Part shown: piece by piece, positions 6,236-34,346 of the stretch
How the letters are laid out: each line of letters begins with the position of its first letter
Numbering within the stretch: the first letter of the stretch is position 1
Source of the DNA: Deltaproteobacteria bacterium
GTDB lineage: Bacteria > Desulfobacterota_D > UBA1144 > Nemesobacterales > JAJCZQ01
DNA: 64,000 bases
Assembly (NCBI GenBank): GCA_029262335.1
Contig: JAJCZQ010000019.1
Span: forward strand, 1 to 64,000
Reading direction: 5' to 3'
Notes under the pieces: generated by a model
Database searches by the model: none
Told to the model about the DNA's origin: nothing
The model's input: only the letters and a program-made list of their open reading frames with translations
Translations under genes and position numbers: made by a program

Positions 6236-6238
6236 TAT

Positions 6239-6276
6239 CACCCCCACCCTGACCCTCCCCCCTCAAGGGGGAGGGG
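6239..6276 (+). repeat. Family A palindromic repeat, + copy
   Basis: An about 40-bp element that begins CACCCCCACCCTGACC and then forms a C-rich/G-rich hairpin (CCCTCCCCC...GGGGGAGGG). Other copies lie near 6402, 6460, 42210, 42322, 42511, 44321, 44539, 44596, 51634 and 53025. It sits directly after the surface-protein stop codon and could act as a transcription terminator or mRNA 3'-end stabiliser. Confidence 0.8.
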
Positions 6277-6298
6277 AAATACTTAGTCATCACTGTAT

Positions 6299-6355
6299 GT
6301 CATTACGAACGCAGTGAAGTAATCTCTTTGTGATTGGCAAGAGATCGCCTCGCTT
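6299..6355 (+). repeat. Family D repeat (GTCATTGCGAACGNAGTGAAG type)
   Basis: Begins GTCATTACGAACGCAGTGAA and continues to GAGATCGCCTCGCTT. Related copies are at 10857-10928 and 37265-37332. This is a widely dispersed intergenic repeat type in bacteria. Confidence 0.7.
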
Positions 6356-6401
6356 AAAGTACTAGAGAACAGGGGAAATATACAAAATTACAATATATTT
6401 T

Positions 6402-6442
6402 CTTCCCCTGCGCATTCGCGGGGGAAGATTAAGATGGGGGTG
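6402..6442 (-). repeat. Family A palindromic repeat, - copy
   Basis: Contains TTCCCCTGCGCATTCGCGGG and ends AAGATGGGGGTG, the reverse complement of the CACCCCCATC start of family A. With the copy at 6239 it forms an inverted pair. Confidence 0.8.
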
Positions 6443-6459
6443 CATAAATATTTTATTTT

Positions 6460-6663
6460 CACCCCCACCCTGACCCTAATGGTTAAGAGTGTTTGGGAAA
6501 CAAATTCTAAATATAAATTTACGAACTATGGGTAATAAAAGTATGGCTAACTAAAGATAAAAATGATTTCTATCATGACACAAGATTCCCAAAATAAATT
6601 ACAGTGGGCTTTTGTTTGCAATAAATTTTATGAACCATAGTTATCCCTCAAAGGGGGAGGGAA
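6460..6663 (+). repeat. Family A repeat split by an insert
   Basis: The left half (CACCCCCACCCTGACCCT, 6460-6477) and right half (CCCTCAAAGGGGGAGGGAA, 6645-6663) together make one normal family A copy, but they are separated by 167 bp. The rest of the 600-bp gap between 6235 and 6836 holds only repeats and an A+T-rich promoter region. Confidence 0.7.
6478..6644 (+). repeat. Insert B1 nested in family A repeat
   Basis: 167 bp starting near GGTTAAGAGT, containing CTAAATATAAATTT and ending CCATAGTTAT. The insert at 42346-42430 shares all three landmarks and also sits inside a family A copy. No coding capacity is seen. It is possibly a small non-autonomous element. Confidence 0.45.
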
Positions 6664-6744
6664 TAAACGTGACAAAATTTCGAAATAGAAATTTCATGCA
6701 CCACTAGATGCTTTACCTACTTAGTGCTTCATTTCTGAAACATA

Positions 6745-6773
6745 TTTACGTAAAAATGATTTATATTTATAAT
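6745..6773 (+). promoter_or_regulatory. Possible promoter for the M23-Deg pair
   Basis: TATAAT at 6768-6773 with a weak -35 (TTTACG, 6745-6750) and 17-bp spacing, 63 nt before the chosen start at 6836. Confidence 0.35.
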
Positions 6774-6835
6774 AGTATTTCTTTATTACTAGAACACATA
6801 TATTGAACTATTTATTATTAAGGTTTAAGGAGAAA

Positions 6836-8194
6836 ATGATGATGAATTTTAAGGCAGGAAAGCACCTTTTATTAATTCCACTTTTATTTATGGCACTATT
6901 ATGGCTTGGCTGTTATGAGAATAGCGAGTCAAATGACCAGGAAGAGGATCTGTTTAGTTTTCAAATCTCACCAGATGATACTAATCTTTTATCCCCGTTA
7001 ATTATAGAAGTTATAAAAGAACCAATACCAATAAGGGCAAATGACGGACTTGTTCATCTTGTATATGAAATACAGATAACCAATTTTACTACTGCAACGA
7101 TTGATTTAAACAAACTTACTGTCTTTGGAGACAGCGTAAATAACAGTCCTCTCCTGATTCTTGAGGGAGATGACCTTAAACAAAAAACTATTTCACTTGA
7201 GTACCATCCTTTCAAGATGGCCCCATTAGATCAGGTTGTAATAGACCAGATAGGCCCCGGCAAAACTGTCGTGTCTTTCCTTGATATAACTATTAATGAC
7301 TTTGACTCCATACCTGGAAAATTATTCAACGAGATTGAAGTTGACGGACCCCCTATAATTGCTCAGGTTCTAGGCAATGAATCATTGTCCATGAGTTTAG
7401 AAGTAAACATTGATAAAAGTGATGTGCTGGTCCTTGGTGAGCCTATTAAAGGCGGCCGTTGGATAAATTTAAACGGCTGTTGTGATTTTTCAAATTCTGC
7501 CCACAGGCGTGTTATACGTTCTGTAGACGGCAAAAAGTTCTTCCCTGAGCGTTACTCAATAGACATTATGGAAGTTGATTCTGAAAACAATTTATTTACC
7601 GGAGATTCCAATAACAATGAAAGCTGGCTTGGCTATGGAGCAGAATTAATTGCGGTTAGTGACGGCGTTGTCAGCAGAGTAGTCAAAGGATTACCGGACA
7701 ACAAACCTGGTGAGTCACCCCCGTTTCCAATAAGCCTTTCCGATGGAGCAGGGAATATTGTAATCCTGCATATTGGTAATGGAATCTACGTGCTGTATGC
7801 ACATCTAATACCTGGTAGCAACGACCACCTGGAAGTAGGAGATTTTGTAAGCAAGGGTGACATGATAGGACTATTAGGGAATACGGGCCAAAGCGGCGCT
7901 CCGCATCTTCATTTTCAGGTAATGGACGGTAACTCCATAGCACAGGCTGAAGGTGTCCCGTTTGTATTCGAAAACTTTGTCAACCTCGGAATGCTTATTG
8001 ATGTTGAGGAAGAAGACGGAGACAACGAGGGAGACGGATTGGATCTTGATGATATAATTGACACTGACGAAGAAGAAAATTTTGAACAGAACAGCCCAGG
8101 AATATTCCTTACCGATGTTGATCTTCTTGAAATACCATCCTCAAGAGTAAATGAACATCAGCTGCAGTTCACCATTATAGAATTTCCTGAATAA
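6836..8194 (+). CDS. M23-family peptidase-like lipoprotein
   Basis: The start is set at the first of three consecutive ATG codons because AAGGAG lies 3 nt upstream; the in-frame TTG at 6803 has no ribosome site. Residues 1-26 are a lipoprotein signal ending in a lipobox (WLGC). The C-terminal half is an M23 (LytM/peptidase) domain: RYSIDIM, YGAELIAVSDGVVSRV, YVLYAHLIPGS and GAPHLHFQV. The zinc ligands Asp (SID) and His (HLHF) are present, but the first His of the usual HxxxD motif is Arg (RYSID), as in some envelope M23 homologues. The tail is acidic and low complexity, then turns ordered again. It is probably an outer-membrane-anchored cell-wall hydrolase or an inactive scaffold. A Deg-type protease follows after 52 bp and may be cotranscribed. 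Confidence 0.85.
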   Translation: MMMNFKAGKHLLLIPLLFMALLWLGCYENSESNDQEEDLFSFQISPDDTNLLSPLIIEVIKEPIPIRANDGLVHLVYEIQITNFTTATIDLNKLTVFGDSVNNSPLLILEGDDLKQKTISLEYHPFKMAPLDQVVIDQIGPGKTVVSFLDITINDFDSIPGKLFNEIEVDGPPIIAQVLGNESLSMSLEVNIDKSDVLVLGEPIKGGRWINLNGCCDFSNSAHRRVIRSVDGKKFFPERYSIDIMEVDSENNLFTGDSNNNESWLGYGAELIAVSDGVVSRVVKGLPDNKPGESPPFPISLSDGAGNIVILHIGNGIYVLYAHLIPGSNDHLEVGDFVSKGDMIGLLGNTGQSGAPHLHFQVMDGNSIAQAEGVPFVFENFVNLGMLIDVEEEDGDNEGDGLDLDDIIDTDEEENFEQNSPGIFLTDVDLLEIPSSRVNEHQLQFTIIEFPE

Positions 8195-8246
8195 TTACTA
8201 ATCAGGCATAATTATTACTCATTATTGTTGAAATCCGGAGGCCTTA

Positions 8247-9722
8247 GTGAAGTACATCATCATATTACTTACTGTTATTTCTATTCAGTTTATTGCTGTA
8301 GATAAGGCATCTGCAGAGTACGACATCAGGAACTCAATTGTTAAAATCTATACACAGATGGTAAGCCCCTATTATTCTGACCCGTGGACAATGGACAGTG
8401 CAGAATTTCACACAGGCTCAGGCTGTATAATTAAAGGAAACAGAATCCTTACAAACGCCCACGTTGTGGCTAACAGCACACATATTCAGCTAAGAAAATA
8501 CGGAGAAGCAAAAAGGCACACTGCAAAAGTATTATATGTCTCCCATGAAGCCGATCTTGCCGTACTAACAGTCGATGACCCGGCATTCTTTGAAAATACT
8601 AAGCCAATAATGCTTGGCCCACTGCCAAATACGCAGGAAGAAGTCCTTGTATACGGTTTCCCAAAAGGCGGTGATACACTAAGTATTACAAAGGGAGTTA
8701 TTTCGAGAATAGAACACGAAGTATATGCGCAGAGCAACCTCCCCTTTCTTGCTGCCCAGATTGATGCCCCTATAAACCCCGGAAACAGCGGCGGCCCGGC
8801 AATAAACAACAATAAAATAGTTGGAATTATTATGCAGACGTTACTAAAATCTGAAAGCATAGGCTATATGGTCCCGCCACCGGTGATAAAACATTTTCTT
8901 GATGATATTGAGAATGGAAAGTACAACGGCTTTCCGTCCATTGGAGTCAGGACTCAGAACATAGAAAATGAAGGGCTTAAAAGTAAATACAAAATGAGTA
9001 ACGCTGATACAGGCGTTTTGGTAACAGGTATTGTGGCTGGATCACCAGCTGAGGGAGTGCTTCAGAAAAAAGATGTAATTCTTAAAGTAGATGGCAGGTC
9101 CGTGTCAGGCAACAGCACTATAGAGTTTCGCCCCAAAGAAAGGACCCACTATTCTTATTTAATTCAAAACAAACAGGTTGGCGAAAATATAGGTATGGAA
9201 ATACTTAGAAATGGTAAGAAGAAAAATATTACTATCCAGCTTGATACACCCATCCAGGACATTCAGCTTGTCAGGATACAGAATGACATTTTACCCAGCT
9301 ACTACATATACGGTGGACTAGTCTTTTCAACACTTACCATTAACTACCTGAAAGACTGGGGAAACCAGTGGTACAGGAAAGCACCATCAGAACTCATATC
9401 CGTTGCCAAATCAAATACAAAGACTAAAAAGGATGAAGAAGTGGTACTTCTGATAAGAGTATTGGCTTCAAATGTTAATCTCGGCTACCACGAGAATGAA
9501 AACCTTATAATAAAGAAGGTAAACAACAGGGAAATAAGCAATTTAGAAGAACTCGTATCAATAGTAGAAAATTCAAATGATGATTTTATTACTTTTGAAG
9601 ATGCCAATGGTAAAGAACTTGTAATTGACAGGAGTAAGGCAGGGACAACTAACCCGGCACTTCTGAAAACTTACAGGATCAATTCTGACAGGTCTGATAA
9701 TTTGAGACAAACAAGTAATTAG
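8247..9722 (+). CDS. Periplasmic HtrA/Deg9-like serine protease
   Basis: A 491-residue protein with a GTG start preceded by CCGGAGG. A signal peptide covers residues 1-23 (ends KASAE). The trypsin-like domain carries a full triad: His72 (TNAHVV), Asp103 (EADLAVL) and Ser181 (NPGNSGGP). The sequence after it (VIKHFLDDIENGKY, GFPSIGVRTQNIEN) matches the Deg9/DEG10 subgroup better than classical DegP. A PDZ domain (TGVLVTGIVAGSPAEGVLQKKDVILKVDG region) lies near residues 240-340, and a second, more divergent C-terminal region around 370-460 may be another PDZ. Its role is probably protein quality control in the envelope. The stop codon overlaps that of the convergent gene at 9719. Confidence 0.9.
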   Translation: MKYIIILLTVISIQFIAVDKASAEYDIRNSIVKIYTQMVSPYYSDPWTMDSAEFHTGSGCIIKGNRILTNAHVVANSTHIQLRKYGEAKRHTAKVLYVSHEADLAVLTVDDPAFFENTKPIMLGPLPNTQEEVLVYGFPKGGDTLSITKGVISRIEHEVYAQSNLPFLAAQIDAPINPGNSGGPAINNNKIVGIIMQTLLKSESIGYMVPPPVIKHFLDDIENGKYNGFPSIGVRTQNIENEGLKSKYKMSNADTGVLVTGIVAGSPAEGVLQKKDVILKVDGRSVSGNSTIEFRPKERTHYSYLIQNKQVGENIGMEILRNGKKKNITIQLDTPIQDIQLVRIQNDILPSYYIYGGLVFSTLTINYLKDWGNQWYRKAPSELISVAKSNTKTKKDEEVVLLIRVLASNVNLGYHENENLIIKKVNNREISNLEELVSIVENSNDDFITFEDANGKELVIDRSKAGTTNPALLKTYRINSDRSDNLRQTSN

Positions 9723-20430: not shown

Positions 20431-21690
20431 ATGAAATATAAAATTATAAGAGGTTTCCACGATATACTGCCGGGGCAGATAGAAAGATGGCATTTTATTG
20501 AAAACACCGCCAGGCAGGTTTTTGAATCTTACGGGTTTAATGAACTAAGGATTCCGGTACTTGAATCAACAGATATCTACTGCACCGGGATTGGTGACAC
20601 AACAGATATTGTGGAAAAAGAGATGTATTCATTTGATGACAGGGACGGCTCTTCCCTTACATTAAGGCCGGAAGGCACTGCCGGGGTTGTCCGTTCATTT
20701 ATTGAAAATTCATTTTACAAAAAAACACCCGTATCAAAGTTTTATTATATGGGCCCTATGTTCAGGCACGAACGCCCTCAAAAAGGAAGATACAGGGGAT
20801 TTAACCAGATAGGCTGTGAATACTTTGGTTCCCAAAGTGCTGCGGCTGATGCAGAAATAATACTAATGCTCTGGTATTTCTTTCAGAAAATCGGTTTTAC
20901 AGACTCAGTAAAAATTGAGATAAATTCCATAGGTGACGAAGAATCAAGGGAAAACTATAAAACAGCTTTAGTAAATTACCTGACCCCGCTGAAGGAAGGC
21001 CTTTGTGACCAGTGCAATAGAAAACTTGGGACTAACCCACTTAGAATACTTGACTGCAAAAATGAAAGCTGCAGAGAAATCACAGTTAATGCTCCGAAAA
21101 TAACAGACTATCTTTCTGAGGCAAGCGGTGTTCATTTTAACAAACTTATCCAAATACTTGATGACCTATCCGTACCCTATAACGTTAATGATAAAATTGT
21201 CCGCGGCCTGGATTATTACACCGAGACTGTGTTTGAATTTACAACCGATAAGCTTGGGTCACAAAACGCAATCGCTGCAGGCGGAAGGTATAACAACCTT
21301 GTTGAAAAGATGGGCGGCCCCCCAACTCCTGCCACCGGATTTGCCCTCGGCCTCGAACGTATTGTACTTCTTCACGAACAGCTTTCAGATAAAGAATTTA
21401 AGTTTCCCACAGACGTCTATATTGCATGGATCGGCGAAGACACTTTTATCCCTGCAATGAAAATTGCAACTGAACTTAGAAACAATGGTAAATCCGTTTA
21501 TATAGAACACGAAAGTAAAAGCATTAAGAGCCAGCTTAAAAGAGCTAATAAACTTGATGCCGGCTATACTCTGATAATTGGCGAAGAAGAGTTAAAAAGC
21601 GGCAGGATTATTGTAAGAAACATGAAAAAAAGCAGCGAAGAGAGCATAGGTATTGAGGATACCGGGAGTCTTCTAAGCTATATTAATTAG
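20431..21690 (+). CDS. hisS: Histidyl-tRNA synthetase
   Basis: A 419-residue class II synthetase charging tRNA-His. Visible are RGFHDILPGQ at the start, motif 2 (PMFRHERPQKGRYRGFNQIG), the HisA signatures RGLDYYTETVFEF and GGRYNNLVEKMGG, motif 3 (GFALGLERI), and a C-terminal anticodon-binding domain (residues of about 325-419). A CDQC...C pair near residues 191-215 is found in many HisRS. The length is normal. Its last 8 bp overlap the convergent gene at 21683. No Shine-Dalgarno is evident. Confidence 0.97.
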   Translation: MKYKIIRGFHDILPGQIERWHFIENTARQVFESYGFNELRIPVLESTDIYCTGIGDTTDIVEKEMYSFDDRDGSSLTLRPEGTAGVVRSFIENSFYKKTPVSKFYYMGPMFRHERPQKGRYRGFNQIGCEYFGSQSAAADAEIILMLWYFFQKIGFTDSVKIEINSIGDEESRENYKTALVNYLTPLKEGLCDQCNRKLGTNPLRILDCKNESCREITVNAPKITDYLSEASGVHFNKLIQILDDLSVPYNVNDKIVRGLDYYTETVFEFTTDKLGSQNAIAAGGRYNNLVEKMGGPPTPATGFALGLERIVLLHEQLSDKEFKFPTDVYIAWIGEDTFIPAMKIATELRNNGKSVYIEHESKSIKSQLKRANKLDAGYTLIIGEEELKSGRIIVRNMKKSSEESIGIEDTGSLLSYIN

Positions 21691-22210
21691 CTCCGTTTAC
21701 AGATATAAAATCATTTATAAACAGGTCTAAAAGTTCGTTTATACCCATCTGTACACAGGTTTGAAATTTTTCCTGGTTACATGAAAACAGTTTACCCGTA
21801 GTCCATGAAGAAGCATTTACACCCTTGTTTTTATTTATTGATTCGCCGAGTACCACGACCGGCCTGTAAACAGAAGCATCTATATATACCGCAAAATTTT
21901 CATGCCCGGTAAACTTGCTTGAAATAATTTTAATCTTTATAAAAGCCCCTCCCCACTGGTTTTTCCACTGCGAATCCCTGTAAACCTTTATTTTTGCTTT
22001 TTCGAGCCTGTCAGAAGACAGTTCGTAAATGTTTTCAACATTCAGTTTTTTTGCTTCCTTGTCCATTGTCCTGTTTTCAAAAAACAGGCCTACTCCTGAA
22101 ATATTCTTTAGAAAAAGCCATGTAGCCGAGTGTACGGGTTTAGGAAAAATTAATATTAATAGAAATACTAACATTCCGAGAGAAATTAATTTTTTTCGAG
22201 AAGAGTTCAT
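21683..22210 (-). CDS. Secreted protein of unknown function downstream of giant TPR gene
   Basis: A 175-residue protein with an N-terminal signal peptide (residues 1-28, KKLISLGMLVFLLILIF...VHSA). The mature part is mixed alpha/beta with two Cys (FSCNQEKFQTCVQ) that could form a disulfide. I do not recognise a family; it loosely resembles small 'surface-adhesin' periplasmic proteins that describe strain response after LKNISG. It begins 29 bp after the stop of the 3771-residue TPR protein on the same strand, so it is probably the last gene of the c-di-GMP-riboswitch operon. Its end overlaps hisS by 8 bp. Confidence 0.6.
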   Translation of the reverse strand: MNSSRKKLISLGMLVFLLILIFPKPVHSATWLFLKNISGVGLFFENRTMDKEAKKLNVENIYELSSDRLEKAKIKVYRDSQWKNQWGGAFIKIKIISSKFTGHENFAVYIDASVYRPVVVLGESINKNKGVNASSWTTGKLFSCNQEKFQTCVQMGINELLDLFINDFISVNGAN

Positions 22211-22239: not shown

Positions 22240-25200
22240 TTATGCATCTACTAATGTTTTAACATAATTTATGCTATCTTCAATCATTTCAAAGTATTCA
22301 GGGTATTTGTCTTTGGAAAAAACCTGCTGGGCTTCCTTGTAACAATTAATGGCATTTTCTCCATTTGTTTTTGCCTCTTCGGTTTCCGCCAGTGTTGTGA
22401 ATGCCCCGGCAATATTATTTTTTGTTGTTGCATACTGAATTGGAAACTGGTCGAGTGTATAAACTATCAAGGCCGCTTCATATGCTTCAACTGCCCTTTT
22501 ACAGTTTCTTGCTTTGTTCTCCACATCGCTTAAGGTCCTGTAGGCAACCCCAAGGTTATTCTGCGTAGCGGCAAACTGCACGGGCATCTGCTGGATACTC
22601 CTTACCTTTAATGCCTCTTTATATGCCTTAACCGCATTCTTGCAGTGTTCAGATTTATCTCTTTCTTCAGCAAGTGTCCTATAAGCAGAACCAAGGTTGT
22701 TTTGTGTCGACCCGTACTGAAGTGGAAATTCCTTTAATTTATAAACATTTAATGAGTTCTTATATGCATTTATGGCTTTAATACAGTTGTCGGCCTTATT
22801 GTCATATTCTGCAAGAGCCCTGTACGAAATACCCAGGTTGTTATTCACCGCGGCAAACTCCATAGGGTTATCGTTAATATTATAGACCTTTAATACTTCC
22901 TCGTAATATGCAATGGATTTATAGCAGTGCGTAAGGTCTTCATCAAGATCAAAAAGCGAATTATAAAGTGTGGCCAGCCTGTTGTTTATATCCGCAAAAT
23001 CAATAGGACTGAGTTCAATGTTATAGTAGGCAAGGGACTGTTCAAATGATTCCGCCGCATTCCTGATATTTTCGGCCTTATCTTCAAATTCGGCAAGTTT
23101 AATATACAGAAACCCCATATTCTTATTTACCAGTCCATAATCACTCAGATATTTTTCTTTGGTATAGAATGTAAGTGAATCTCTATAATTTTGCACTGCT
23201 TTTTTAAGATTTTCCGGCACCTCATCACTTGAAACAAGTGCATTATAAGAAATTCCAAGATACTTATTTATAATGGCTTTTTCTTTCAGGTTTTCTGCTT
23301 CGGTAAAGATTTCAAGTGCACTCTGATAAGAATTAATCGCCTTCTTGTTCATTTCAGAATCAGAGGTCAGTTCGGCCATAATACCGTAAGAAACGCCCAG
23401 GTCCTTATGTATCTCTGCAAATTCATCGGGTGTATTTTCTTTATTATAATATTTAAGTGCATTATTAAAATTTACTATCGCCGTCTCATAGGATTTAGGG
23501 TTCCCGCTGTTTTCGGCAAGATAATAATTTGATTTTCCGAGTTTGTAGTTAATCTCTCCGTTTTCCTTTGGAAACTGTTCCGTTGAATAATAAGAAAGAG
23601 AGCGTGAGTAACAGTTTATCATGTCCTTATACTGTCTGAGATCGTTGCTCTGCTTTGTAAAATCATTATAAGTATTGGCAATGCACATATTTACTTCGGC
23701 AAATTTCTGGTTGTCGATTTTTTCAGTAAATACTTTTAATGCATTCCTGAAAGACGTAATTGCCATTCCGTAATATTTTGAACTTTTTTCATTATTAGCG
23801 AGCATATGATAGGCATAACCAAGCTCAATTGAGACCTTTCCGTATTCCTCCGGATTTTCATCAGAATTTACAGCAGACAATGTTTTCTCAAGAGACTTAA
23901 CAGTATCAAGCTGGTTATCAGCAGGTATTTCCTCTGTATCAACAACCGGCTGTTCGGTTTCAACTAATTCATCGGCAACAATCTCCGGTTCAAATCCGGT
24001 AATTTCCGGGGCCTTTTCAGTACCTTCTTCGCTAATATCAAACACTTCTTCTTTCTCTTCAGTGCTTTGCGGTTCTTCTTCCTGAACTTCATCATATAAC
24101 TCAAGCTCACCGGTAATACCTGAATCTTCGGAATCAAAGGCCGTTTGCAGCTTTTCGGTAATTTCTTTAATTTCAGCCTGCCTTTCTTCATCAGCAGTAT
24201 CCAGCGCCTGGTTAAAACTGTTTATAGATTCGAAAATCTGCTGCTTATCGAGGTTTTGTTCCCATTTTCTTTTATAAAGCATTCCCAGCTGATAGTAAAT
24301 TTCGCTTTTTTGTGGAAATTCTTTAATTGTATTTGAAAGTTCAGCAGCGTTATTCAAAAGCTCCCCTGCATTTGTAAAATCATTAACCTGGCTGTGCCGG
24401 GTCCCAAGAGCAAGATAGGCTTCGGCCAGGTATCTGTCCATCTCTTCTTCATAAACTGTAATTTTTGAACTTTCTGCAGTCTTTTTAAATTCATTAATAT
24501 AGTCTGCAATTAATCCTATGTTCTCGATTGATACCAGTTTTCTAAGTTCAAGTAAGAACTCATACTTCAATGTTGTACATTCTTCTTTACCTATCCTGGA
24601 TTCATGAGTATTTAAAAAACTCGACAGGAATTGAATAGCATTAGCAATATTTCCTGTATTTGCCTCCAGGTAAACAAATAGGGAAAGGTTTTCAATGAGT
24701 TTTGGTTTAAGAACACCCAGACTCTCTTCATCACCGGATTTATCATACAACTCCCATGATTTTACGGCTGATTGGATAGATTCGGATACCAGGTTTTTAT
24801 CCGTACCCCTGGCAAGCAGTTTATAGGAATCAGAAAGGTTTTGATATATGTTTGCCTGATCAACTGTCTTGTTAGTCTCTGGAATAATTGGCAGTAATTT
24901 GTTATATGACTCTATACTCTTTGATATATATTCGTAGTTCTTTCTGTCTCTTCCAAACTCAAAATAACAGTATGTGAGATTTTTTAGTACATCGCAGTAC
25001 TCATCAGGGTTTTTATTAATATCTGTTTGATCCAGAATATCTTCAAGTTTTTTAATCCTTGTCTCTATATCTTCATTTTCATCAATTACAGACTCAACTT
25101 TATCAGCACCACCGATTAATTCATTTATCTCATTATATTTTTCCGGGAAATCCTTTTCATTGTAGAATATGAGCGAGTTACTTAAATACTCTTTTGCTTT

Positions 25201-28200
25201 ATTTAAGTCGTTTTCATCCCCGGTTTCTTTATATCTATTATTTATTAGTTCATATAATTTAATATTTGTATCTGCATACAACTCACTATCCTGCTTACTG
25301 AAAGCATCTGTTTCGAATACCCTGTTATACATTTGCTCTGCAATTTCAATATTGTTTCTGGATGCTTCAAAATCACCCATCTCTTTGTGAATTACAGCAA
25401 TATTCTGCCCTGTTATTTCTGCTGCTTTATCATTACCGGCGTCTTTATAATAGTTAAGGACACTGTCATAACAACTAAGGGCAAATGTAAGGTTTTCGCC
25501 ATATTCAGTAATTCCGGAAAGAAGTTTATATGAATCAGCAAGTTTAGTATTTACCTGAGCTTCCATCTCTAACTTACTGCATTTATTGTAGTAATTACAT
25601 GCATTTTTGTAATAATCAATAGAAAGCCTGATGTTTTCTTCGCTTGACTGCTGACTGTTTAATTTAAGAATCCGGTCAGCAATTTGTTCATTCTGAACAG
25701 CAAATTCCTCATTGCGGTCTGCTACAGGGCCGGGTTCGATGACTTTATTTATGATTGGTAAGATTGTGTCTCTGGAACTTTCTTCCAGGTCGGAAATAAG
25801 TACTGTTACAATTTCATTTAATCCATTAAATACAGTTTGATGTAACTCAGCTTTCCCGCCAGTAGTATTGGCATTAAGGGTATCAGAAAAGTACTCTATG
25901 GATTTAACAGAGTTTTCCGGTTCCTTTGTATCGATATATAGCCCTTTATATTGCTCTGCCAGCTTTAAACTAAGTTCCGAGTATTTATCGGGATCATTGT
26001 CCGGGCTGTAGTCTTTCCTGGCTTCAACATAGCTGTTAATTTTCTCTACGGGGTCTTCAATGCTATCTATATTATCTTCAAGTATTAAGTTTAGTTCCCT
26101 GACAGCCTCTTCAATTTCTGCATTTTGGGTCTTAAAATTGTCAGGGGTATAGAATTTTAAAGAATCGTTATAACTGTCCCGGGATTTTGTGAGATAGTCT
26201 TCCTGATTGTCAAATTTATATAGTTCATGATAAACAGAGCCAAGACACCTTGTTACCTGCCCAAAATACTCGCCGAATTTCAGTTCGTTGAACACACTGT
26301 GTGATTCTTCAAGGAAGCTGAGAGCGTTAAAATAGTTTTCCCTGCTTTTTTCTCCAGTGGCTATTTTATAATAGCTTCTTCCCGCAAGGTAGCTGAATTT
26401 TGCATAAGTGGAGGGGTTTGTTTCCTTGCTGAAAATACTTAGTGAATCTTTTGCTACTTCAACAACAAGGCTTTCACTGCCTTCTACCACGTAAAAATTA
26501 ATCAGTCTCTCATACAGGCTCTCAAGTTGTTCATCAACGTTTTTTAGTTCCTGCTTAAGCTCTTCATTTTTAAAGTATTCCCTTGAAATTTTAAAATGGT
26601 TAATTGCTTTTGTGACAGTATTGGAGTTAGTATCTTCGTTATCTACCTTAGAATAGATCTCACCGACTTTATAATTAGTGAAATAAAAATCAGACTGTTT
26701 CTTTTCATCAGTAATTATATTAAGGTATTTCTCATAATATGATGCGGCCTCAATATAACCCGAACTATCCCCGGAGAGTTCTGCTTCTGATTCAATTAAC
26801 TGTCCTAATTCCTTATTAATTTTTGCATAACCACTCTTGTCATTATCTACATCTATGTAAGGTTCTATTCCCTTTAATATTTCTTTTGCAACTCCGCCTG
26901 CAACATCTTTTTTCTCGATTAAGTGGTTCTGTATAACATCAAAAGAACTAATAATTTCTCCGAACTCAGCAGGGAAATCTTTATTATTGTAGTAATCCAG
27001 GCATTTACTAAATGAATCAAATGCGTCTTTTATTTGTCCGATATTCTTATCGTCCTGCATCGAGAGCGTGAGATATATCCCGGCAGTCTTTTTATCTAAA
27101 AATGCAGTTTTTTCAGGAGACTCTGCTGCACCTGCCATCTCCCCTGCTTCCCTGTACAGGTTAAGCGCAATTGAAAGATTGCCGTTCTTTTCCTCTTCTT
27201 CTGCAAGTTTGAGGGTCAGTTCTGAGATACTATCAACAAGTTGCTTATGAAGCTCACCATATTCATCTGCGTTATAAAATTTTAGTGCATTTTTATAACG
27301 GGAAACCGAAGTTAGAAGGTCATTTTTTTCATGGTTAATGTTGTAAAGTTTTTCATAAAGTGATGCCAGGCTAAAATTAATCTCAGCTGATTTCTGGGGG
27401 TGTTCTTCATGGCTGAAGATATCAGCAACATCTTTATAACAGTTTACAGAATTAATAATATTGTCATTCTGATCATCATCTTCAACTTCAGAAAGTTTTT
27501 CATAAGACACAGCTTTTAGAAGATTTAAATTAGCAAATTCAGTTTTTAGCTGTTCGGTATAAAGTCCTTCGTCGAGGTTATTAATTATTTGTATACATTT
27601 CACATATTCTCTTTTATTTAAATAACTGCCGGCACTGTTATGAGTCCTGTTTAAAATAGATTTAAGTACTTGAGTGTATTTTTCGTTTTGACTCTCTTTA
27701 TCATACACATTCAGGCATTTACCCAGATATTCAATTGATTTAAGTTCGTATTCGCTATTTGTTTCTTCATCTCCAACTCTTCCATATATTTCTGCAAGTG
27801 CCAGATTGATCTCTGTATACTCATCCGGATTGTTATCGTGAGCATAGTAATCATTTGCTTTTTCAAGGAATACAATACTGTTCTTAAAATTATCAATATT
27901 ATTAGTTTCGATCGCCTGATTATAAGAGGCAAGTCCCATCTTGTAGTTTATCTCTGCAAATAAATCTTCCTTCCCGCCGGGCTGAACAAGATCGAAAAGT
28001 AAGTTATATATCCGGATTGATGCTTCATTATCACCTCTTTCAAAAGAAGAGGAAGCAAGTTCCTTATAAATAGAAATTTTTGATGATTTTATTCTTTCGA
28101 TTAGATCTTCATGTTCGTCCGGGCCAAAACATTTAAGTGCTTCATCATAATGCTTTACAGATTCTTCCAGACTGCTTTCGTCTTTTAATTCTTTAAATGA

Positions 28201-31200
28201 ATCGGCAATAAAATTATTTATCTGTCCGTAAAGGTCTTTTTCATTTTCAAGACTGTAGTATTGAAGCGACTTCTTATAATATTTTATTGAGTTGTTTAAA
28301 TTGTCCTTTGAATCTTCTTCAGGGCCATTATTTTGATAGAGTTTACCAAGTGACCTGTAAATATTTGCATTCTCTTCGTTAACCTCAGACTCATCTAAAT
28401 TCTCAAGTGCATTTAAGTAAAGAGTTAACGCATGAGCAGGATTGCTCGTTTCATTCAAACCGGCTTCTTCTATATAACAGCTGCTTATCTGTTTCTTTAT
28501 TACCGAATGTTTTTCAGGAAATTTATCAGCTTCAAAATAGTTAAGTGATTTTTCAAAGTGGCTTACAGCATTTTCTGTATTATGAAATTCCCTTTCAAGT
28601 ATTCCGAGGGTCTGGTAAACGTTACCAAGCTTCTCACGTACTGCAGGCCCGTGTTCCCCATCATTGTCTGTTGTGTTAAGTCCCAGAGATTTCTGGTAAT
28701 AATCTTTTGAACTAATCAATGGAGTGATATTCTGATCGAGTTCATAGACCTGAAAAAATACATCCCCTGTCTTTTCAAGAAGGTCGGCAGATTCGTCAAT
28801 CATCATGTTATCATCATAAAACTGAATTGCCTTTTCATAAGAATTTATGGCTATATTAAGGTATTCGGGATTTTTATCGTTACTTCCCAAATAGTTATAT
28901 ATCTCACCTGTTTTTACATTGACAGAAGCTTTTAGCTCTTCACCTGAATCATCTGCAAAAAAATCACTGGCTTTTAAAATCAGGCCAAGGGCACTCTCAT
29001 AATCTCCACCTTCTGCTATTGCAGCATCTGAAAGCTCAATATAGAGGTTGGCCATGTTTGATGATATTTTGCTGATTTTTTCAGTGTTTGAATGTTCTTC
29101 GTAATAAGCAAGTGCCTTGTTAAAGGATTCGGCTGTTTGTTCCAGACTCTTGTAATCCTTATTTTCACCAGAAATTACGTAATAACAGTTGCCGAGATTA
29201 AAGTATATTTCTGCAACTTCTTCCGTGTTGGGGTTATCTCTTAGTGCATTTAATGATTTGTTGTATGTAAGGACAGCGTTTTCAACATTTTTAATATTTC
29301 CATCATTTTCATAAAGCTTAAAATAAGAATCTCCAAGTTTTTTCTGAGTACCTGCAAACTGGACCGGGAACTCACTGAAAGTAAATGTCTCGGAAAGGTT
29401 TTGGTAATGTTCAACTAATTTTACAGGGTCATCTCCCAGATTTTCCAGACTCTCGAGGCTGTTGTATGTATCCGCAATAGCATCTCTTATCAGTCCATTT
29501 TCCTGTGGATAATTTTCAGAATCAAAAAACTGTATCGCATCCCTGTAAGAATTTATACCTTTCATATATGAATCGGTATCATTTTCGCTCTTACCAAGCT
29601 CCACAATAATCTCAGCAAGAATCAATTTGTTACAGGCATGGTGGTAGGGGAAATTATCAGGATCAAAAATATCCAGTGATTTACCGGCAAATTCCCCTGC
29701 AAGTTGCAGCTGCAAATTATCGTCGTCATTTTTGCTGTTTGAGACATAAGCTCTGGCTATAAAATAACAGACTGTCCCAAACTCATATGGATTATCATCC
29801 GGATTATATATCTCTATTACTTTTTTAAATTCTTCTATTGAATCGGCAATTTTTTTATCGTCTTTTTCTTCAAGGCCGAGTTCAAAATTTAGTTTGGCAA
29901 GATTAAATTTAATAGATGCATACTGAAGGGGACGCTCATCCCTGTTGTAGTATCTAAGCGAGCAGTTATATGCCTCAACAGCTTCACTCTTGTAGTGACT
30001 GCTGTCTTCTAGCCTGGACATTGTTTCCATGGCATAGGCATAATTGTTTTTAACTACACCACACTGAATATTGTTTGGCTCACTCTTAAAAAGCTCCATG
30101 GAGTTCTGAAAATACACTGAAGATTTCTGGCAGTTTTCGTAGCCGTCAATTTCACCTGAAAGGTTAAAATAGGCCACACCTATATTGTTATTAATAGTTG
30201 AATTGAAGTACTGGTTTTCACCAATATGGTTTAGTGAATTGTCATAATGCTTTATCGCTGTTCCGCTGTTTTCAATTTTATGTTCGTAATTTGAGAGTTT
30301 CAGGTACGCATTGCCAAGGCTGTTATTAAGTATGGAATACATTCTTGGGCTCTGCTCTCCGTCGCAGAATTCCAGTGCACTGTTTATGGTCTCAATGGCC
30401 CTTCCGCAATTATCAACATTGCCTTCGTCTGCGGCAAGTAAAATGTAGGCCTCGGCAAGATTGTTGCTGGCAATAAAAAAATCATCCGGCTGTCCGGCAG
30501 GATCAAAGATGTTTAGTGCTTCATTAAAACAGTTAATTGCCTGCTTACAGTTATTTTCAATATCATCATTATCTGAGCTTTGTATAAGTGCATTACCAAG
30601 GTTGCTTGAAATCGTGGCATATACCAGTGGGTGTTCGTCTTTACTTAAATTACTTAGTGAGTTTCTGAATGACTCTACTGCTTTTATAGAATAATTATCT
30701 TCGTCTGAAACATCCGCAAGCAGGCTGTATGAACTTCCGACATTGTTGCCAATTACTGCAAACCTGAAAGGCTGCTGTGCGGGATCAATAACTTCGAGTG
30801 CATTCCTGTAATACTCTACGGCTCTTTGAGAATTAACAGTCCTGTTTTCTATTTCCGAAAGTTTCTTATACTGGTTGCCAATGTTATTAGCTATATCAGA
30901 ATAATATTCCGGGTAAGTATCAGAACCATAAAACTCCATTGAGCTTGTATATGCATCAATTGAAAGTTTTATTGTTTCTTCATCTGTTTCTGATTCAGTA
31001 ATATTGGAGTAAAGATCGCCGATATATTTATTTATTAATCCATGCTCTTCAGGCGACTCTTCTTTTGTAAAATACTCCAGGGAATTTTTCAGGCTTTGTA
31101 TTGCCGATTCTGAATTATTTTTATAATCCTCATGCCTTGAGAGTTCGAGATATGATTTGCCTGTCTTTCTTTCCAAAAGGGCAAAATTATCGGGATAGTT

Positions 31201-33555
31201 TTCCCTGTTATAATATTTTTTTGAATCGTTATATGATTCTATAGCCTTTTTAAGCCATTCCGGTTCGTTGTTTATTGAAAATATTGACGAGTAGGTATCA
31301 CCTATATTGCTATTTATCATTCCAAAGTTCTCGTCAGAACTACTGCCGTTCATTACATCAATGGAATTATTAAAACACTCAACCGCTTTTTCCAGCTTAG
31401 TAATATCTTTTTCCAGCTCACCTGATGTCCTGTAAGCAACTCCAAGATTATTTTTGGTCATTGCATAATCAGTAGGAGAGTCTTCGGGGTCTATCAAATC
31501 GAGAGCCGAGTTGTATGCCTGAATTGCATTAGAGCTGTTAAGTTCCTGTTCTTTTACATTAGCAAGTGAACTGTAGGAATTTCCAAGATTGGTCTGAATG
31601 TCAGCATACTGAAGCGGAAACTCGGACTTATTAAAAATATTTAATGATTCAATATAAGATTCTATTGCTTTTTCAAGATATGAAATGTCTTCTTCGATCT
31701 CACTAAGTACCTCGTAGGTTTTTGAAAGGCCGATCTTTGTATTTGCAAAATCAACAGGGAAATTTTCATGATTATATACCCTAAGTGCTTCTTCATATGA
31801 TTCTGCTGCCCTGATACAAAGCTCATGATCATTATTAATAATGGCCAGTCCCCTGTAGCTGTCTCCAAGTTTTCTTTGTATACCGGCATATGACTTTGGA
31901 TGTTCGGAATATCTTAGAAAAGTAATAGATTCTTCGTAGTGTTCTATTGCTGCCTCAAAATTTAGATGCAAATCATTAGTATCCGTGCTGAGGGCCAGTA
32001 AATCGGCGGCATTGCTCTTTGTAAGAGCATAAAATATGGGATACTCATTTACGGAAAATACTTTTAAAGATTTATCAAAACATAAGGACGCCTCGGCCCT
32101 GTCATTATCTGATTCTCCAATTTTGGTTTTGAGCGTATAACATCTTCCAAGTTCATTTTGAATACGCCCGAAAGCCTTGGGAAATTTATCAACTGTGTAA
32201 AAGGAGAGCGCTTCATTGTAAAGATCAACTGCCGCACTTATATCCTCTGCATTTCTGTCTATATATCCAATCTCCCTATGAATATTTGCCAGATGGATTT
32301 TGGCATCAAAATATTCTTTGGGGAAATTTACTTCAGAATAAGTTCCGCTGTACTGATTAAAAGAATTCAGAGAATTTTGATATTCCTCTTTTGAATTCAG
32401 GAGTTCTGCTTTCTTAAAATAAGCAAGTCCCAGGTTCTTATGGTAAAGCCCGTATTCGAGGGGAAATGATTTTTGCAGAAAATCCGTAAGAGAGCTTAAA
32501 AAATATTCAATTGCATCGTCTAAATAATTAATACCGCCCTGCACATCTTCAATAGCAAGCAGGTTTACACCGAGATTATTAAAAACCTTGGTCCTGTAAA
32601 GTGAGCTGTCCTCTTGTATACCTTCTTCAATAACTTCCTTTAGTGTATCAACAGCTGCTTCGCAGTTTTCTACCTTCTCATCATATACCGACATCAGCGT
32701 ATGTGCATCGGCATACCTTCTCTTAATTTTACTTTTATCTTCTTCGCTTACGGAACTGAAAATATCCTCAAAGAGCTGCTTTATATTATTGATACATTTC
32801 TTTAGCTCTACCGGGTTAAGAAGAACAGTTTCAAACAAACCAAGATATACCGCCGGCAACAGGCTGTATATATAAGGCGGGAAATTTACTGCGTTATTTT
32901 TTTCTATATTACTTATTGTTTCGTATATCTCGTTGACCCTGTCCATGGAAGGTTCATCAAGCCCGAGATAGTACTCTATAATTTCCTGTGAAAGATTGGA
33001 AACATGTTTTATAAGATCAGCGTCGTTTATGTTGCTGATCAATAAATTTTCAACAACAAGGTCCTGTATGATTTCATCAGAATTCTCCGAGAGATATGAA
33101 TCAAGGATATTATTGATCTGAACCGAGATATAGTTTGGGTCCTTTTCACTTATATCAACGGATATTATATTTGATGAATCGGAAAATATGGTTAAATCCC
33201 CGTCCTCTTCACCTTTTGTATTAAAGATCGGGAAAATATTTTTTTCCTTACCTTTAAAAAACCCATATGAATAAAGAATATTGGCGTTCAGTCCGTCAAG
33301 AAGAATAATGGTAAAAGAACTTTCTTCAGAATTCTTTTCAACCATTTCGGCATCAATTTCATGATGATCAAAGGTTTTTACATAAAATCCTTTTTTGAGT
33401 AACGAATACTTTATGGGTTTGACAACATCTTCTATGTAATCAACTATCTCTTCATGTGGATGAAGTATCAGGCACGGAATAGCACCATCCAGTATAAGGC
33501 TAAGCACCTCTCCGCTTGTTAATTCAATATTGGAACTGATTTTATTGCGTTTCAT
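22240..33555 (-). CDS. Giant 3771-residue TPR protein with N-terminal nucleotide-binding-like domain
   Basis: A single uninterrupted frame of 3771 codons. Residues 26-150 look like the nucleoside 2-deoxyribosyltransferase/TIR-like fold: CLILHPHEE at the first strand, VVKPIKYSLLKKGF, DHHEIDAEMVEKN, then LDGLNANILYSYGFFKG (86-102), which aligns with the DLTGxNPNVxYELGxAxG motif of that superfamily. The usual catalytic Glu (YELG) is Ser/Tyr here, so activity is doubtful. From about residue 165 to the end is a TPR solenoid with a 47-residue period (unit core NNLGxAYRxLAE and AIxxYxxALxxY); length implies roughly 75 units. This unit type occurs in CHAT-associated TPR proteins. An acidic linker interrupts it at about 3142-3215. 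No signal peptide or transmembrane segment is seen, so it is probably cytoplasmic. The leader carries a c-di-GMP-I riboswitch. Function unknown; scaffold or sensor is inference. Confidence 0.9.
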   Translation of the reverse strand: MKRNKISSNIELTSGEVLSLILDGAIPCLILHPHEEIVDYIEDVVKPIKYSLLKKGFYVKTFDHHEIDAEMVEKNSEESSFTIILLDGLNANILYSYGFFKGKEKNIFPIFNTKGEEDGDLTIFSDSSNIISVDISEKDPNYISVQINNILDSYLSENSDEIIQDLVVENLLISNINDADLIKHVSNLSQEIIEYYLGLDEPSMDRVNEIYETISNIEKNNAVNFPPYIYSLLPAVYLGLFETVLLNPVELKKCINNIKQLFEDIFSSVSEEDKSKIKRRYADAHTLMSVYDEKVENCEAAVDTLKEVIEEGIQEDSSLYRTKVFNNLGVNLLAIEDVQGGINYLDDAIEYFLSSLTDFLQKSFPLEYGLYHKNLGLAYFKKAELLNSKEEYQNSLNSFNQYSGTYSEVNFPKEYFDAKIHLANIHREIGYIDRNAEDISAAVDLYNEALSFYTVDKFPKAFGRIQNELGRCYTLKTKIGESDNDRAEASLCFDKSLKVFSVNEYPIFYALTKSNAADLLALSTDTNDLHLNFEAAIEHYEESITFLRYSEHPKSYAGIQRKLGDSYRGLAIINNDHELCIRAAESYEEALRVYNHENFPVDFANTKIGLSKTYEVLSEIEEDISYLEKAIESYIESLNIFNKSEFPLQYADIQTNLGNSYSSLANVKEQELNSSNAIQAYNSALDLIDPEDSPTDYAMTKNNLGVAYRTSGELEKDITKLEKAVECFNNSIDVMNGSSSDENFGMINSNIGDTYSSIFSINNEPEWLKKAIESYNDSKKYYNRENYPDNFALLERKTGKSYLELSRHEDYKNNSESAIQSLKNSLEYFTKEESPEEHGLINKYIGDLYSNITESETDEETIKLSIDAYTSSMEFYGSDTYPEYYSDIANNIGNQYKKLSEIENRTVNSQRAVEYYRNALEVIDPAQQPFRFAVIGNNVGSSYSLLADVSDEDNYSIKAVESFRNSLSNLSKDEHPLVYATISSNLGNALIQSSDNDDIENNCKQAINCFNEALNIFDPAGQPDDFFIASNNLAEAYILLAADEGNVDNCGRAIETINSALEFCDGEQSPRMYSILNNSLGNAYLKLSNYEHKIENSGTAIKHYDNSLNHIGENQYFNSTINNNIGVAYFNLSGEIDGYENCQKSSVYFQNSMELFKSEPNNIQCGVVKNNYAYAMETMSRLEDSSHYKSEAVEAYNCSLRYYNRDERPLQYASIKFNLAKLNFELGLEEKDDKKIADSIEEFKKVIEIYNPDDNPYEFGTVCYFIARAYVSNSKNDDDNLQLQLAGEFAGKSLDIFDPDNFPYHHACNKLILAEIIVELGKSENDTDSYMKGINSYRDAIQFFDSENYPQENGLIRDAIADTYNSLESLENLGDDPVKLVEHYQNLSETFTFSEFPVQFAGTQKKLGDSYFKLYENDGNIKNVENAVLTYNKSLNALRDNPNTEEVAEIYFNLGNCYYVISGENKDYKSLEQTAESFNKALAYYEEHSNTEKISKISSNMANLYIELSDAAIAEGGDYESALGLILKASDFFADDSGEELKASVNVKTGEIYNYLGSNDKNPEYLNIAINSYEKAIQFYDDNMMIDESADLLEKTGDVFFQVYELDQNITPLISSKDYYQKSLGLNTTDNDGEHGPAVREKLGNVYQTLGILEREFHNTENAVSHFEKSLNYFEADKFPEKHSVIKKQISSCYIEEAGLNETSNPAHALTLYLNALENLDESEVNEENANIYRSLGKLYQNNGPEEDSKDNLNNSIKYYKKSLQYYSLENEKDLYGQINNFIADSFKELKDESSLEESVKHYDEALKCFGPDEHEDLIERIKSSKISIYKELASSSFERGDNEASIRIYNLLFDLVQPGGKEDLFAEINYKMGLASYNQAIETNNIDNFKNSIVFLEKANDYYAHDNNPDEYTEINLALAEIYGRVGDEETNSEYELKSIEYLGKCLNVYDKESQNEKYTQVLKSILNRTHNSAGSYLNKREYVKCIQIINNLDEGLYTEQLKTEFANLNLLKAVSYEKLSEVEDDDQNDNIINSVNCYKDVADIFSHEEHPQKSAEINFSLASLYEKLYNINHEKNDLLTSVSRYKNALKFYNADEYGELHKQLVDSISELTLKLAEEEEKNGNLSIALNLYREAGEMAGAAESPEKTAFLDKKTAGIYLTLSMQDDKNIGQIKDAFDSFSKCLDYYNNKDFPAEFGEIISSFDVIQNHLIEKKDVAGGVAKEILKGIEPYIDVDNDKSGYAKINKELGQLIESEAELSGDSSGYIEAASYYEKYLNIITDEKKQSDFYFTNYKVGEIYSKVDNEDTNSNTVTKAINHFKISREYFKNEELKQELKNVDEQLESLYERLINFYVVEGSESLVVEVAKDSLSIFSKETNPSTYAKFSYLAGRSYYKIATGEKSRENYFNALSFLEESHSVFNELKFGEYFGQVTRCLGSVYHELYKFDNQEDYLTKSRDSYNDSLKFYTPDNFKTQNAEIEEAVRELNLILEDNIDSIEDPVEKINSYVEARKDYSPDNDPDKYSELSLKLAEQYKGLYIDTKEPENSVKSIEYFSDTLNANTTGGKAELHQTVFNGLNEIVTVLISDLEESSRDTILPIINKVIEPGPVADRNEEFAVQNEQIADRILKLNSQQSSEENIRLSIDYYKNACNYYNKCSKLEMEAQVNTKLADSYKLLSGITEYGENLTFALSCYDSVLNYYKDAGNDKAAEITGQNIAVIHKEMGDFEASRNNIEIAEQMYNRVFETDAFSKQDSELYADTNIKLYELINNRYKETGDENDLNKAKEYLSNSLIFYNEKDFPEKYNEINELIGGADKVESVIDENEDIETRIKKLEDILDQTDINKNPDEYCDVLKNLTYCYFEFGRDRKNYEYISKSIESYNKLLPIIPETNKTVDQANIYQNLSDSYKLLARGTDKNLVSESIQSAVKSWELYDKSGDEESLGVLKPKLIENLSLFVYLEANTGNIANAIQFLSSFLNTHESRIGKEECTTLKYEFLLELRKLVSIENIGLIADYINEFKKTAESSKITVYEEEMDRYLAEAYLALGTRHSQVNDFTNAGELLNNAAELSNTIKEFPQKSEIYYQLGMLYKRKWEQNLDKQQIFESINSFNQALDTADEERQAEIKEITEKLQTAFDSEDSGITGELELYDEVQEEEPQSTEEKEEVFDISEEGTEKAPEITGFEPEIVADELVETEQPVVDTEEIPADNQLDTVKSLEKTLSAVNSDENPEEYGKVSIELGYAYHMLANNEKSSKYYGMAITSFRNALKVFTEKIDNQKFAEVNMCIANTYNDFTKQSNDLRQYKDMINCYSRSLSYYSTEQFPKENGEINYKLGKSNYYLAENSGNPKSYETAIVNFNNALKYYNKENTPDEFAEIHKDLGVSYGIMAELTSDSEMNKKAINSYQSALEIFTEAENLKEKAIINKYLGISYNALVSSDEVPENLKKAVQNYRDSLTFYTKEKYLSDYGLVNKNMGFLYIKLAEFEDKAENIRNAAESFEQSLAYYNIELSPIDFADINNRLATLYNSLFDLDEDLTHCYKSIAYYEEVLKVYNINDNPMEFAAVNNNLGISYRALAEYDNKADNCIKAINAYKNSLNVYKLKEFPLQYGSTQNNLGSAYRTLAEERDKSEHCKNAVKAYKEALKVRSIQQMPVQFAATQNNLGVAYRTLSDVENKARNCKRAVEAYEAALIVYTLDQFPIQYATTKNNIAGAFTTLAETEEAKTNGENAINCYKEAQQVFSKDKYPEYFEMIEDSINYVKTLVDA

Positions 33556-33814
33556 AATTCTACTTTAATTTATATGCAAAAATATTGCCAAAATATTAAG
33601 TTTTGGCTTAATCTTTAAAGAAATATTTTAAATCTGCATTAACTTATAATATTATTCAATAATTTAAGTACTTTACAGAAGTTAAAATATAATCCACTTT
33701 ATATTTAATCCCAACCTCGTTTAAATATTTTGGTAAATAATAATGGTTTATAGCAGGTAACGGCTTATTGAAAGGGAAAAATAGAACATTTTACAAAAAA
33801 AATACCCCATTTTC
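33556..33814 (-). other. Long leader between aptamer and giant gene
   Basis: 259 nt of A+T-rich mRNA leader follow the aptamer. Apart from the U8 tract right after the aptamer I see no small ORF with a good ribosome site and no strong second hairpin. The giant gene has only a weak ribosome site (AAAGTAGAATT before ATG). Confidence 0.5.
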
Positions 33815-33835
33815 GGCAGTCTGGCAGCCGGTAGC
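33795..33835 (-). terminator. Possible attenuator of the riboswitch
   Basis: On the minus strand the 3' half of the aptamer (CTACCGGC...GCCG) can pair internally (CGGC/GCCG, with TACC/GGTA outside) and is followed within 12 nt by eight T residues (plus-strand A run, 33795-33802). This would be a Rho-independent terminator competing with ligand-bound aptamer. The helix is interrupted, so the call is tentative. Confidence 0.4.
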
Positions 33836-33886
33836 ATTAAGCCTTAGGCCCTAAACTTTGCGTCCCACTCTTTCAAATGGTTTGCC
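33815..33886 (-). promoter_or_regulatory. Cyclic di-GMP-I (GEMM-I) riboswitch aptamer
   Basis: Read on the minus strand, all GEMM-I landmarks occur in order: GGCAAACC, a hairpin CCATTT-GAAA-GAGTGG with a GNRA tetraloop, the invariant GGGACGCAAAG, the second stem beginning AGGGCCTAAGGC (which holds the tetraloop receptor), and a 3' arm GCTACCGGCTGCCAGACTGCC-like closing P1 (GGCA/TGCC). It lies 259 nt before the start codon of the giant TPR gene and about 20 nt after the predicted transcription start. c-di-GMP-I aptamers bind the second messenger c-di-GMP and switch transcription or translation of the downstream gene. Confidence 0.95.
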
Positions 33887-33915
33887 ATTATCATTTATCA
33901 CAATATTTATTAAAA

Positions 33916-33943
33916 ATGTTAATACTCTTATAAATATTGTCAA
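33916..33943 (-). promoter_or_regulatory. Promoter of the riboswitch operon
   Basis: Minus-strand TTGACA (33938-33943, perfect -35), 16-bp spacer, TAACAT (33916-33921). Transcription would start near 33909, about 20 nt before the aptamer. Confidence 0.6.
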
Positions 33944-33983: not shown

Positions 33984-34346
33984 TTAACTTTGGTCATCAG
34001 GTTTGGAAATTGCTTTTAATTTACCAAGTTCATGCAGTGCACTTTCATGAAGAACCTTCAATTCTTCTTCCAGGTCGGTTTGTTCCTGTTCAATTTTTGC
34101 AATTTCAACACATTTGTTTCTAAGGCTTTCATTATCAAAAGAATCCTTTAGTTTAAACATTTTGTACACGGATTCACCAATTTGGTTAATTGCTTTGGCC
34201 TGTTTCTTTTTATTGCCTGATATTTTATTCTTAATTTTTACAGTTCCATATGCTTCTTTAGACCTGATATTTACGACTCTCAGCCCCTTACTTATACTGT
34301 TTTTTAATACCGACAAAATATCGCCGTTATCGTTGTGTTCAGACAT
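33984..34346 (-). CDS. Small coiled-coil protein of unknown function
   Basis: A 120-residue soluble protein. The N-terminal 50 residues are basic (SISKGLRVVNIRSKEAYGTVKIKNKISGNKKKQAKAINQIGE region) and residues of about 70-110 form a heptad-rich coiled coil (CVEIAKIEQEQTDLEEELKVLHESALHEL). It has no signal peptide. A GGGAG Shine-Dalgarno sits 7 nt before the ATG. I do not recognise the family with certainty; similar small proteins sit near stress or phage-shock genes, but nothing here supports that. It is upstream of the riboswitch operon on the same strand with its own ribosome site. The giant gene has a separate promoter, so cotranscription would be read-through only. Confidence 0.65.
   Translation of the reverse strand: MSEHNDNGDILSVLKNSISKGLRVVNIRSKEAYGTVKIKNKISGNKKKQAKAINQIGESVYKMFKLKDSFDNESLRNKCVEIAKIEQEQTDLEEELKVLHESALHELGKLKAISKPDDQS

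Follow-up and report, generated by a model that had tools for sequence, protein, structure and literature searches.

The locus

The window analysed here is a stretch of 64,000 nucleotides (64 kb) from a genome of Candidatus Dadabacteria, among which the uncultured host has its nearest named relatives. Its minus strand carries a gene of unusual length, referred to below as the giant gene, together with a c-di-GMP-I (GEMM-I) riboswitch aptamer that ends 257 nt before the start codon on the same strand (Table 1). The proteins encoded by the flanking genes, of 120 and 175 aa, were searched against Pfam and NCBIfam, and neither returned a match. Relatives of the 120-aa protein are small Dadabacteria proteins with the sequence SKGLRVVNIRSKEAYxTVKIKN, encoded next to the giant gene or the hisS region, and many of them have a C-terminal CxCG...CxxC motif.

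Table 1. Features of the giant-gene locus, in window coordinates
Feature	Position	Strand	Basis or remark
Gene downstream of the giant gene and syntenic with it; 175-aa signal-peptide-like product	21683..22210	-	Synteny
Giant gene, 3771 aa, 11.3 kb	22240..33555	-	Open reading frame
Predicted sigma-54 (-24/-12) promoter, TTGGCA-ATATTT-TTGCA	33575..33591	-	Exact element ending 19 nt before the giant ATG
7-bp hairpin, GCCAAAA-UUUUGGC then AAUAUUUUUG	33587..33607	-	Terminator-like, or simply an inverted repeat that shares letters with the sigma-54 -24 box
U8 tract, ~10 nt after the aptamer	33795..33802	-	Sequence; not a terminator on the evidence obtained
c-di-GMP-I (GEMM-I) riboswitch aptamer, full length	33812..33896	-	RF01051 covariance match
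Candidate distal promoter, TTGACA, 16 nt, TAACAT; would transcribe the aptamer	33916..33943	-	10/12 consensus, weak -10
Gene for a 120-aa protein (SKGLRVVNIRSKEAY family), synteny marker	33984..34346	-	Conserved in relatives

The giant protein

The first-pass annotation of this DNA had described the gene product as a 3771-residue TPR solenoid with a nucleotide-binding-like head. The solenoid is upheld by an open reading frame of that length, a profile match to TPR_12 (5e-28) and a strict repeat period of 47 residues. It is joined through a helical linker to an N-terminal domain (~residues 25-135) that is TIR/deoxyribosyltransferase-like. In a model of residues 1-332 (mean pLDDT 70), strands and helices alternate over residues 26-112 and are followed by helices, and a structure search with this model returned weak matches (E 0.015-0.05, TMt 0.48-0.65) to DNPH1, purine deoxyribosyltransferase and bacterial TIR proteins (DNPH1, PdTIR, BtpA and 1s2l), which have the alternating beta/alpha topology in common with it. 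Set against this likeness are the E-values themselves, the moderate confidence of the model and the absence from the window copy of the Glu that is usual in the superfamily, since its motif region reads YSYGFFKGKEK, with Ser at the catalytic position, where relatives have YELGYLRGRGK or YEYGFFRGKGK and some keep the Glu. The head is accordingly retained as a resemblance of modest confidence to TIR, DNPH1 and deoxyribosyltransferase domains, but one that lacks the usual catalytic residue. The giant protein is probably a cytoplasmic scaffold, because no signal peptide is apparent in it. A reading as part of a defence system was considered and set aside, the only PADLOC match being a weak one to the TPR part.

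Identity of the aptamer and its expected ligand

When the window was compared with the whole of Rfam (Infernal cmscan), a single match exceeded its gathering score: the minus-strand interval 33896-33812 was assigned to RF01051 (c-di-GMP-I), with 68.1 bits against a gathering score of 35 bits, an E-value of 3.4e-11 and coverage of model positions 1-87 of 87. A covariance search with this model was a check proposed in the first-pass annotation, which had recognised the element from its landmarks at 33815-33886, an interval that is the core of the full aptamer. All of the landmarks listed there are read in the sequence, namely GGCAAACC, a GAAA-capped P2, GGGACGCAAAG, GGGCCUAAGGC and the closing ...UGCC, and the likeness to RF01051 extends to the GGCAAAC and GACGCAAAG core and to the position in a 5' leader. 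The letters of the ligand pocket are intact (the G of GGCAAAC, the A of GACGCAAAG and the CC of UGCC); these correspond to G20, A47 and C92 in the numbering of the Vc2 structure. Of the elements for tetraloop docking, GAAA and CCUAAG are present, whereas the 3' half of the receptor is UACCGG instead of the usual UAUGG; the receptor varies in many of the order's other copies as well. The idea that giant-linked copies are distinguished by having lost the tetraloop receptor was rejected, since the association was not significant (p 0.30, with a loose regular expression). The aptamer is a genuine and ordinary member of the well-known class-I c-di-GMP type, and it was found independently in the named Ca. 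Dadabacteria relatives.

The expected ligand is c-di-GMP, because the letters diagnostic of the GGC and cGAMP variants are absent and the GGDEF enzyme of the genome has the motifs of a diguanylate cyclase. That the aptamer might instead be a c-di-GMP-I-GGC switch (RF03167) or a 3',3'-cGAMP switch of the position-20 A type is suggested by overall similarity, as the RF03167 model scores 58.5 bits in the window, below its gathering score of 59, and exceeds that score in the aptamers of several relatives. The diagnostic letters nevertheless make either variant very improbable, and both were discarded on these grounds. The A-to-G change at A47 that marks RF03167 (GACGCGAAG) is absent from the window, which has GACGCAAAG there, and (A/G)CGCAAAG occurs in the window and in all giant-linked relatives, with GCAAA in place of the diagnostic GCGAA. 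The letter at position 20 is the G of GGCAAAC, not the A of the cGAMP type; in Vc2 numbering this is the G that cGAMP riboswitches have exchanged for A. The only GGDEF protein of the genome, a GAF-GGDEF protein of 709 aa, has an intact GGDEF motif and the sequence GHQAGD, as in a diguanylate cyclase. The Hypr enzymes that make cGAMP have Ser where canonical enzymes have Asp (PMC6456294), a position that would correspond to the Asp of GHQAGD.

The giant gene as a probable conserved target

The host genome has four c-di-GMP-I riboswitches, and at least one is present in 21 of the 44 genomes of the order. All 21 of these riboswitch-bearing genomes encode GGDEF proteins, and the riboswitch is missing from each of the 16 genomes that lack GGDEF, a comparison in which kinship is ignored. 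An aptamer lies 161-259 nt upstream of an orthologous giant gene in eight genomes (G000, the host; G001, its sister; G003, G008, G017, G027, G035 and G043), with a ninth probable case in G037, where the giant gene is broken by contig ends. Orthology was defined by a similar N-terminal domain, TPR repeats and the same flanking genes. The upstream synteny gene encodes 120-149 aa across the giant-linked genomes, and the downstream gene for a secreted protein and hisS are conserved too wherever the contig permits. The giant-linked aptamers belong to families f1, f3 and f7 of the order; in three f5 genomes (G005, G013 and G025) the giant gene is present and no riboswitch match was found.

Because different genera and families have retained the linkage, the giant gene is regarded as the target of the aptamer, and the comparison across genomes indicates that the association did not arise by chance in a single genome. 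The proposal of the first-pass annotation that this gene is the riboswitch's target has been strengthened accordingly, and the gene appears to be an unusual but evolutionarily conserved one. Known members of RF01051 differ from the window copy in this respect, and within the library searched no paper links a c-di-GMP-I riboswitch with tetratricopeptide proteins. The other conserved targets found in the order are the pilM operon, a T2SSE (PilB-type) ATPase, a PilZ-domain protein, secreted CBM96/PKD proteins, a UDP-sugar dehydrogenase, a LuxR-type regulator and a histidine kinase, with the giant gene and pilM being the two most recurrent by genome count. On the strength of these other targets the giant gene is grouped with surface-lifestyle genes. 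The c-di-GMP-I regulon would thereby gain a giant, costly and probably cytoplasmic repeat protein, for whose function a surface or pilus lifestyle is the first clue.

Architecture of the leader

Sites as good as the candidate distal promoter are about as common in shuffled sequence (9 found against 7.4 in shuffles), and its TTGACA recurs at the corresponding place in G001, G003, G008, G027 and G035. The first-pass annotation had noted the order of promoter, aptamer and U8 tract and had read it as a transcription attenuator with the U8 tract as its terminator tail. The order itself stands, with a TTGACA -35-like hexamer, the aptamer and then U8 at close range, but the terminator hairpin is missing. 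No stem of at least 5 pairs precedes the tract, the only hairpin there being one of 4 bp that ends 11 nt before it, and the stretch folds no better than its shuffles (z +0.31). Furthermore, the sister species retains the aptamer but has AUAUUUCUGUAUUAG where the tract would be, and the f3 leaders have no U8-like tract. Attenuation at the U8 tract was consequently rejected and is given very little weight.

An intrinsic-terminator test found no GC-rich hairpin directly joined to a U tract after the aptamer, and in the window, G001, G003 and G017 the stretch from aptamer to giant gene holds no strong terminator. The sole terminator-like site on the leader strand is the gene-proximal hairpin at 33607-33587 (-7.3 kcal/mol, z -2.7), which is weaker in the sister species (-6.2, z -2.0) and could serve as an attenuator controlled by the aptamer, given that its 3' arm, UUUUGGCA, is by inspection able to pair with the aptamer's 3'-terminal UGCCGAAA. 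This is a doubtful reading, however. The hairpin coincides with the -24 box of the predicted sigma-54 promoter, which constrains the same letters; it is weak, and its U tail is degraded in the sister species. It is also uncoupled from the aptamer in folding, as forcing the aptamer to form left both the hairpin (0.93 in both folds) and the accessibility of the start site (0.57 in both) unchanged, and the scanned f7 and f3 leaders contain nothing terminator-like. Taken together, the analyses demonstrated neither a terminator nor a structure sequestering the ribosome site in the window leader. Long and puzzling platforms are known among c-di-GMP riboswitches, as for Bc1 (PMC11218506). The Cd1 (Clostridioides difficile) and pilM (Geobacter) riboswitches have the same aptamer class, and the pilM operon is a target in other Dadabacteria, but terminator-based platforms were demonstrated in those systems (PMC9262584) and none was found for the giant gene of the window.

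Pairing between the leader and the 5' arm of the aptamer was also considered. Over 60 sites this complementarity is above chance (Fisher p 4e-6, the sites not being phylogenetically independent), but for the giant leaders taken together it is not significant (Fisher p 0.14), and anti-aptamer pairing was set aside as a general platform. The complement of the aptamer's GGCAAAC, GTTTGCC, occurs in 6 of 72 leaders against 0.5 expected and is never found upstream. It is present at G003:C9, G008:C119, G027:C2, G000:C39, G001:C240 and G003:C4b, its conservation in f3 leaders is suggestive, and it is possibly a shared anti-aptamer strand; the window leader lacks it. The complementary stretch that the window does have, CCATTATTATTTA, pairs into an outer stem, most of which persists when the aptamer is formed in the constrained fold, and thus was ruled out as a clear switch. 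A small leader open reading frame after the aptamer (GGGATATG...) was likewise dismissed, as it is not conserved and reaches a stop at the third codon in G027.

A predicted sigma-54 promoter between aptamer and gene

The predicted sigma-54 promoter just before the giant gene was absent from the first-pass annotation. Such sites were defined as GG-N10-GC with TTGGCA/TTGCW at -24/-12, together with an RpoN gene in the genome; the element at 33591-33575 has this form, and RpoN is encoded by the host. Promoters of this class start transcription 11-12 nt beyond the -12 box and depend on an enhancer-binding protein. A single strict match in a 64-kb window is not rare (17 of 100 shuffles). Genome-wide, the strict pattern has 15 sites versus 1 for a reversed-pattern control, and most of the 15 lie 20-55 nt before genes, including those for a prepilin-like protein, secreted proteins and sensor proteins. 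Two of them are located between a riboswitch and its gene, at the giant gene and at a C25-family secreted peptidase (G000:C31), versus an expectation of ~0.004 in riboswitch leaders (15 sites per 4.2 Mb of strand and ~1.2 kb of leader). The site of the giant gene is kept in sister genome G001, and TTGGCATAGTTATTGC(A/T) stands at the matching place in G013 and G025, where the giant gene has no riboswitch; no strict site was found between aptamer and giant gene in f3 and f7. As the promoter sits between the aptamer and the start codon, a transcript initiated there would lack the riboswitch, and the giant protein could then be expressed without it.

Proposed regulation of the giant gene

The favoured reading, which is probably correct, is that a canonical c-di-GMP-I riboswitch in the long leader of the giant gene has this gene as its conserved target, with two predicted transcription starts in the genus and a place in a network of c-di-GMP and sigma-54. 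The distal TTGACA promoter would produce a leader of ~350 nt, in which c-di-GMP would change onward transcription or translation. The sigma-54 promoter, driven by an enhancer-binding protein, would produce an mRNA without the aptamer. The giant gene would in this manner be tied to a surface-lifestyle network to which, in this order, type IV pilus genes, PilZ and secreted proteins belong as well. From the aptamer match, its linkage and conservation and the enrichment of the sigma-54 motif, all established computationally, we infer ligand binding, the use of both promoters and regulation of the gene.

Chances are about even for the further proposal that the giant gene has two functional promoters, the distal one giving a c-di-GMP-gated mRNA and the inner one a riboswitch-free mRNA, and that its input has shifted over evolution. 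The layouts across families are consistent with such a shift, as two f5 genomes have the sigma-54 site without the riboswitch, f1 has both, and f3 and f7 have the riboswitch but no inner sigma-54 site. Should it hold, the locus would be a clear example of a riboswitch open to bypass by an internal sigma-54 promoter, and one suited to ordinary reporter fusions.

The aptamer could instead belong to a stand-alone short RNA, with the sigma-54 promoter as the sole source of giant-gene transcripts. A complete sigma-54 motif 19 nt before the ATG is in keeping with this, as is the outcome of the folding and pairing analyses, which established no expression platform. There is also precedent in the merRNA of Bdellovibrio, a c-di-GMP riboswitch with no gene under its control (PMC3627812), and in an orphan copy of the same genome (G000:C39) that has no gene behind it and a strong terminator at its end. 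The merRNA is a good fit for that orphan; the window aptamer differs from it in having a conserved gene in the same orientation behind it. Moreover, f3 and f7 retain the aptamer in front of the giant gene despite the lack of a strict sigma-54 site between the two, and the leaders of the window, G001, G003 and G017 have no strong terminator to separate aptamer and gene. A stand-alone RNA is therefore unlikely, and the leader riboswitch remains the preferred reading.

Other riboswitch loci in the order

The orphan c-di-GMP-I riboswitch follows mqnD and has no same-strand gene behind it. It occurs at L002 1501-1585 (G000:C39:64012-64096), L034 (G001:C240) and L019 (G017:C66). It is followed, in both G000 and G001, by a terminator made of a strong hairpin and U8 (-15.5 kcal/mol, z -4.7 at G000:C39), close to where the convergent gene ends. 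Conserved in two families, this element may be a merRNA-like or antisense-acting RNA.

The dual layout of the giant gene is repeated at G000:C31 (L007), where a riboswitch at 5255-5359 and a predicted sigma-54 promoter at 5455-5471 precede the gene for the C25 (gingipain family) secreted peptidase at 5551-9048 (1165 aa). Elsewhere the arrangement is reversed: at G005:C1, G015:C9, G025:C23 and G025:C68 a strict sigma-54 site precedes the aptamer by 68-94 nt, and owing to this position sigma-54 may drive transcription of the riboswitches concerned in G005, G015 and G025. The riboswitch at G025:C23 is followed by a gene for a PilB-type ATPase. Lastly, a c-di-GMP riboswitch precedes a gene for a PilZ-aminotransferase-acetyltransferase fusion of ~920-940 aa at L063 1783-4551 (G003:C3), with orthologues in G008, G015, G027, G037 and G042, a combination of RNA and protein sensors of c-di-GMP in one gene.
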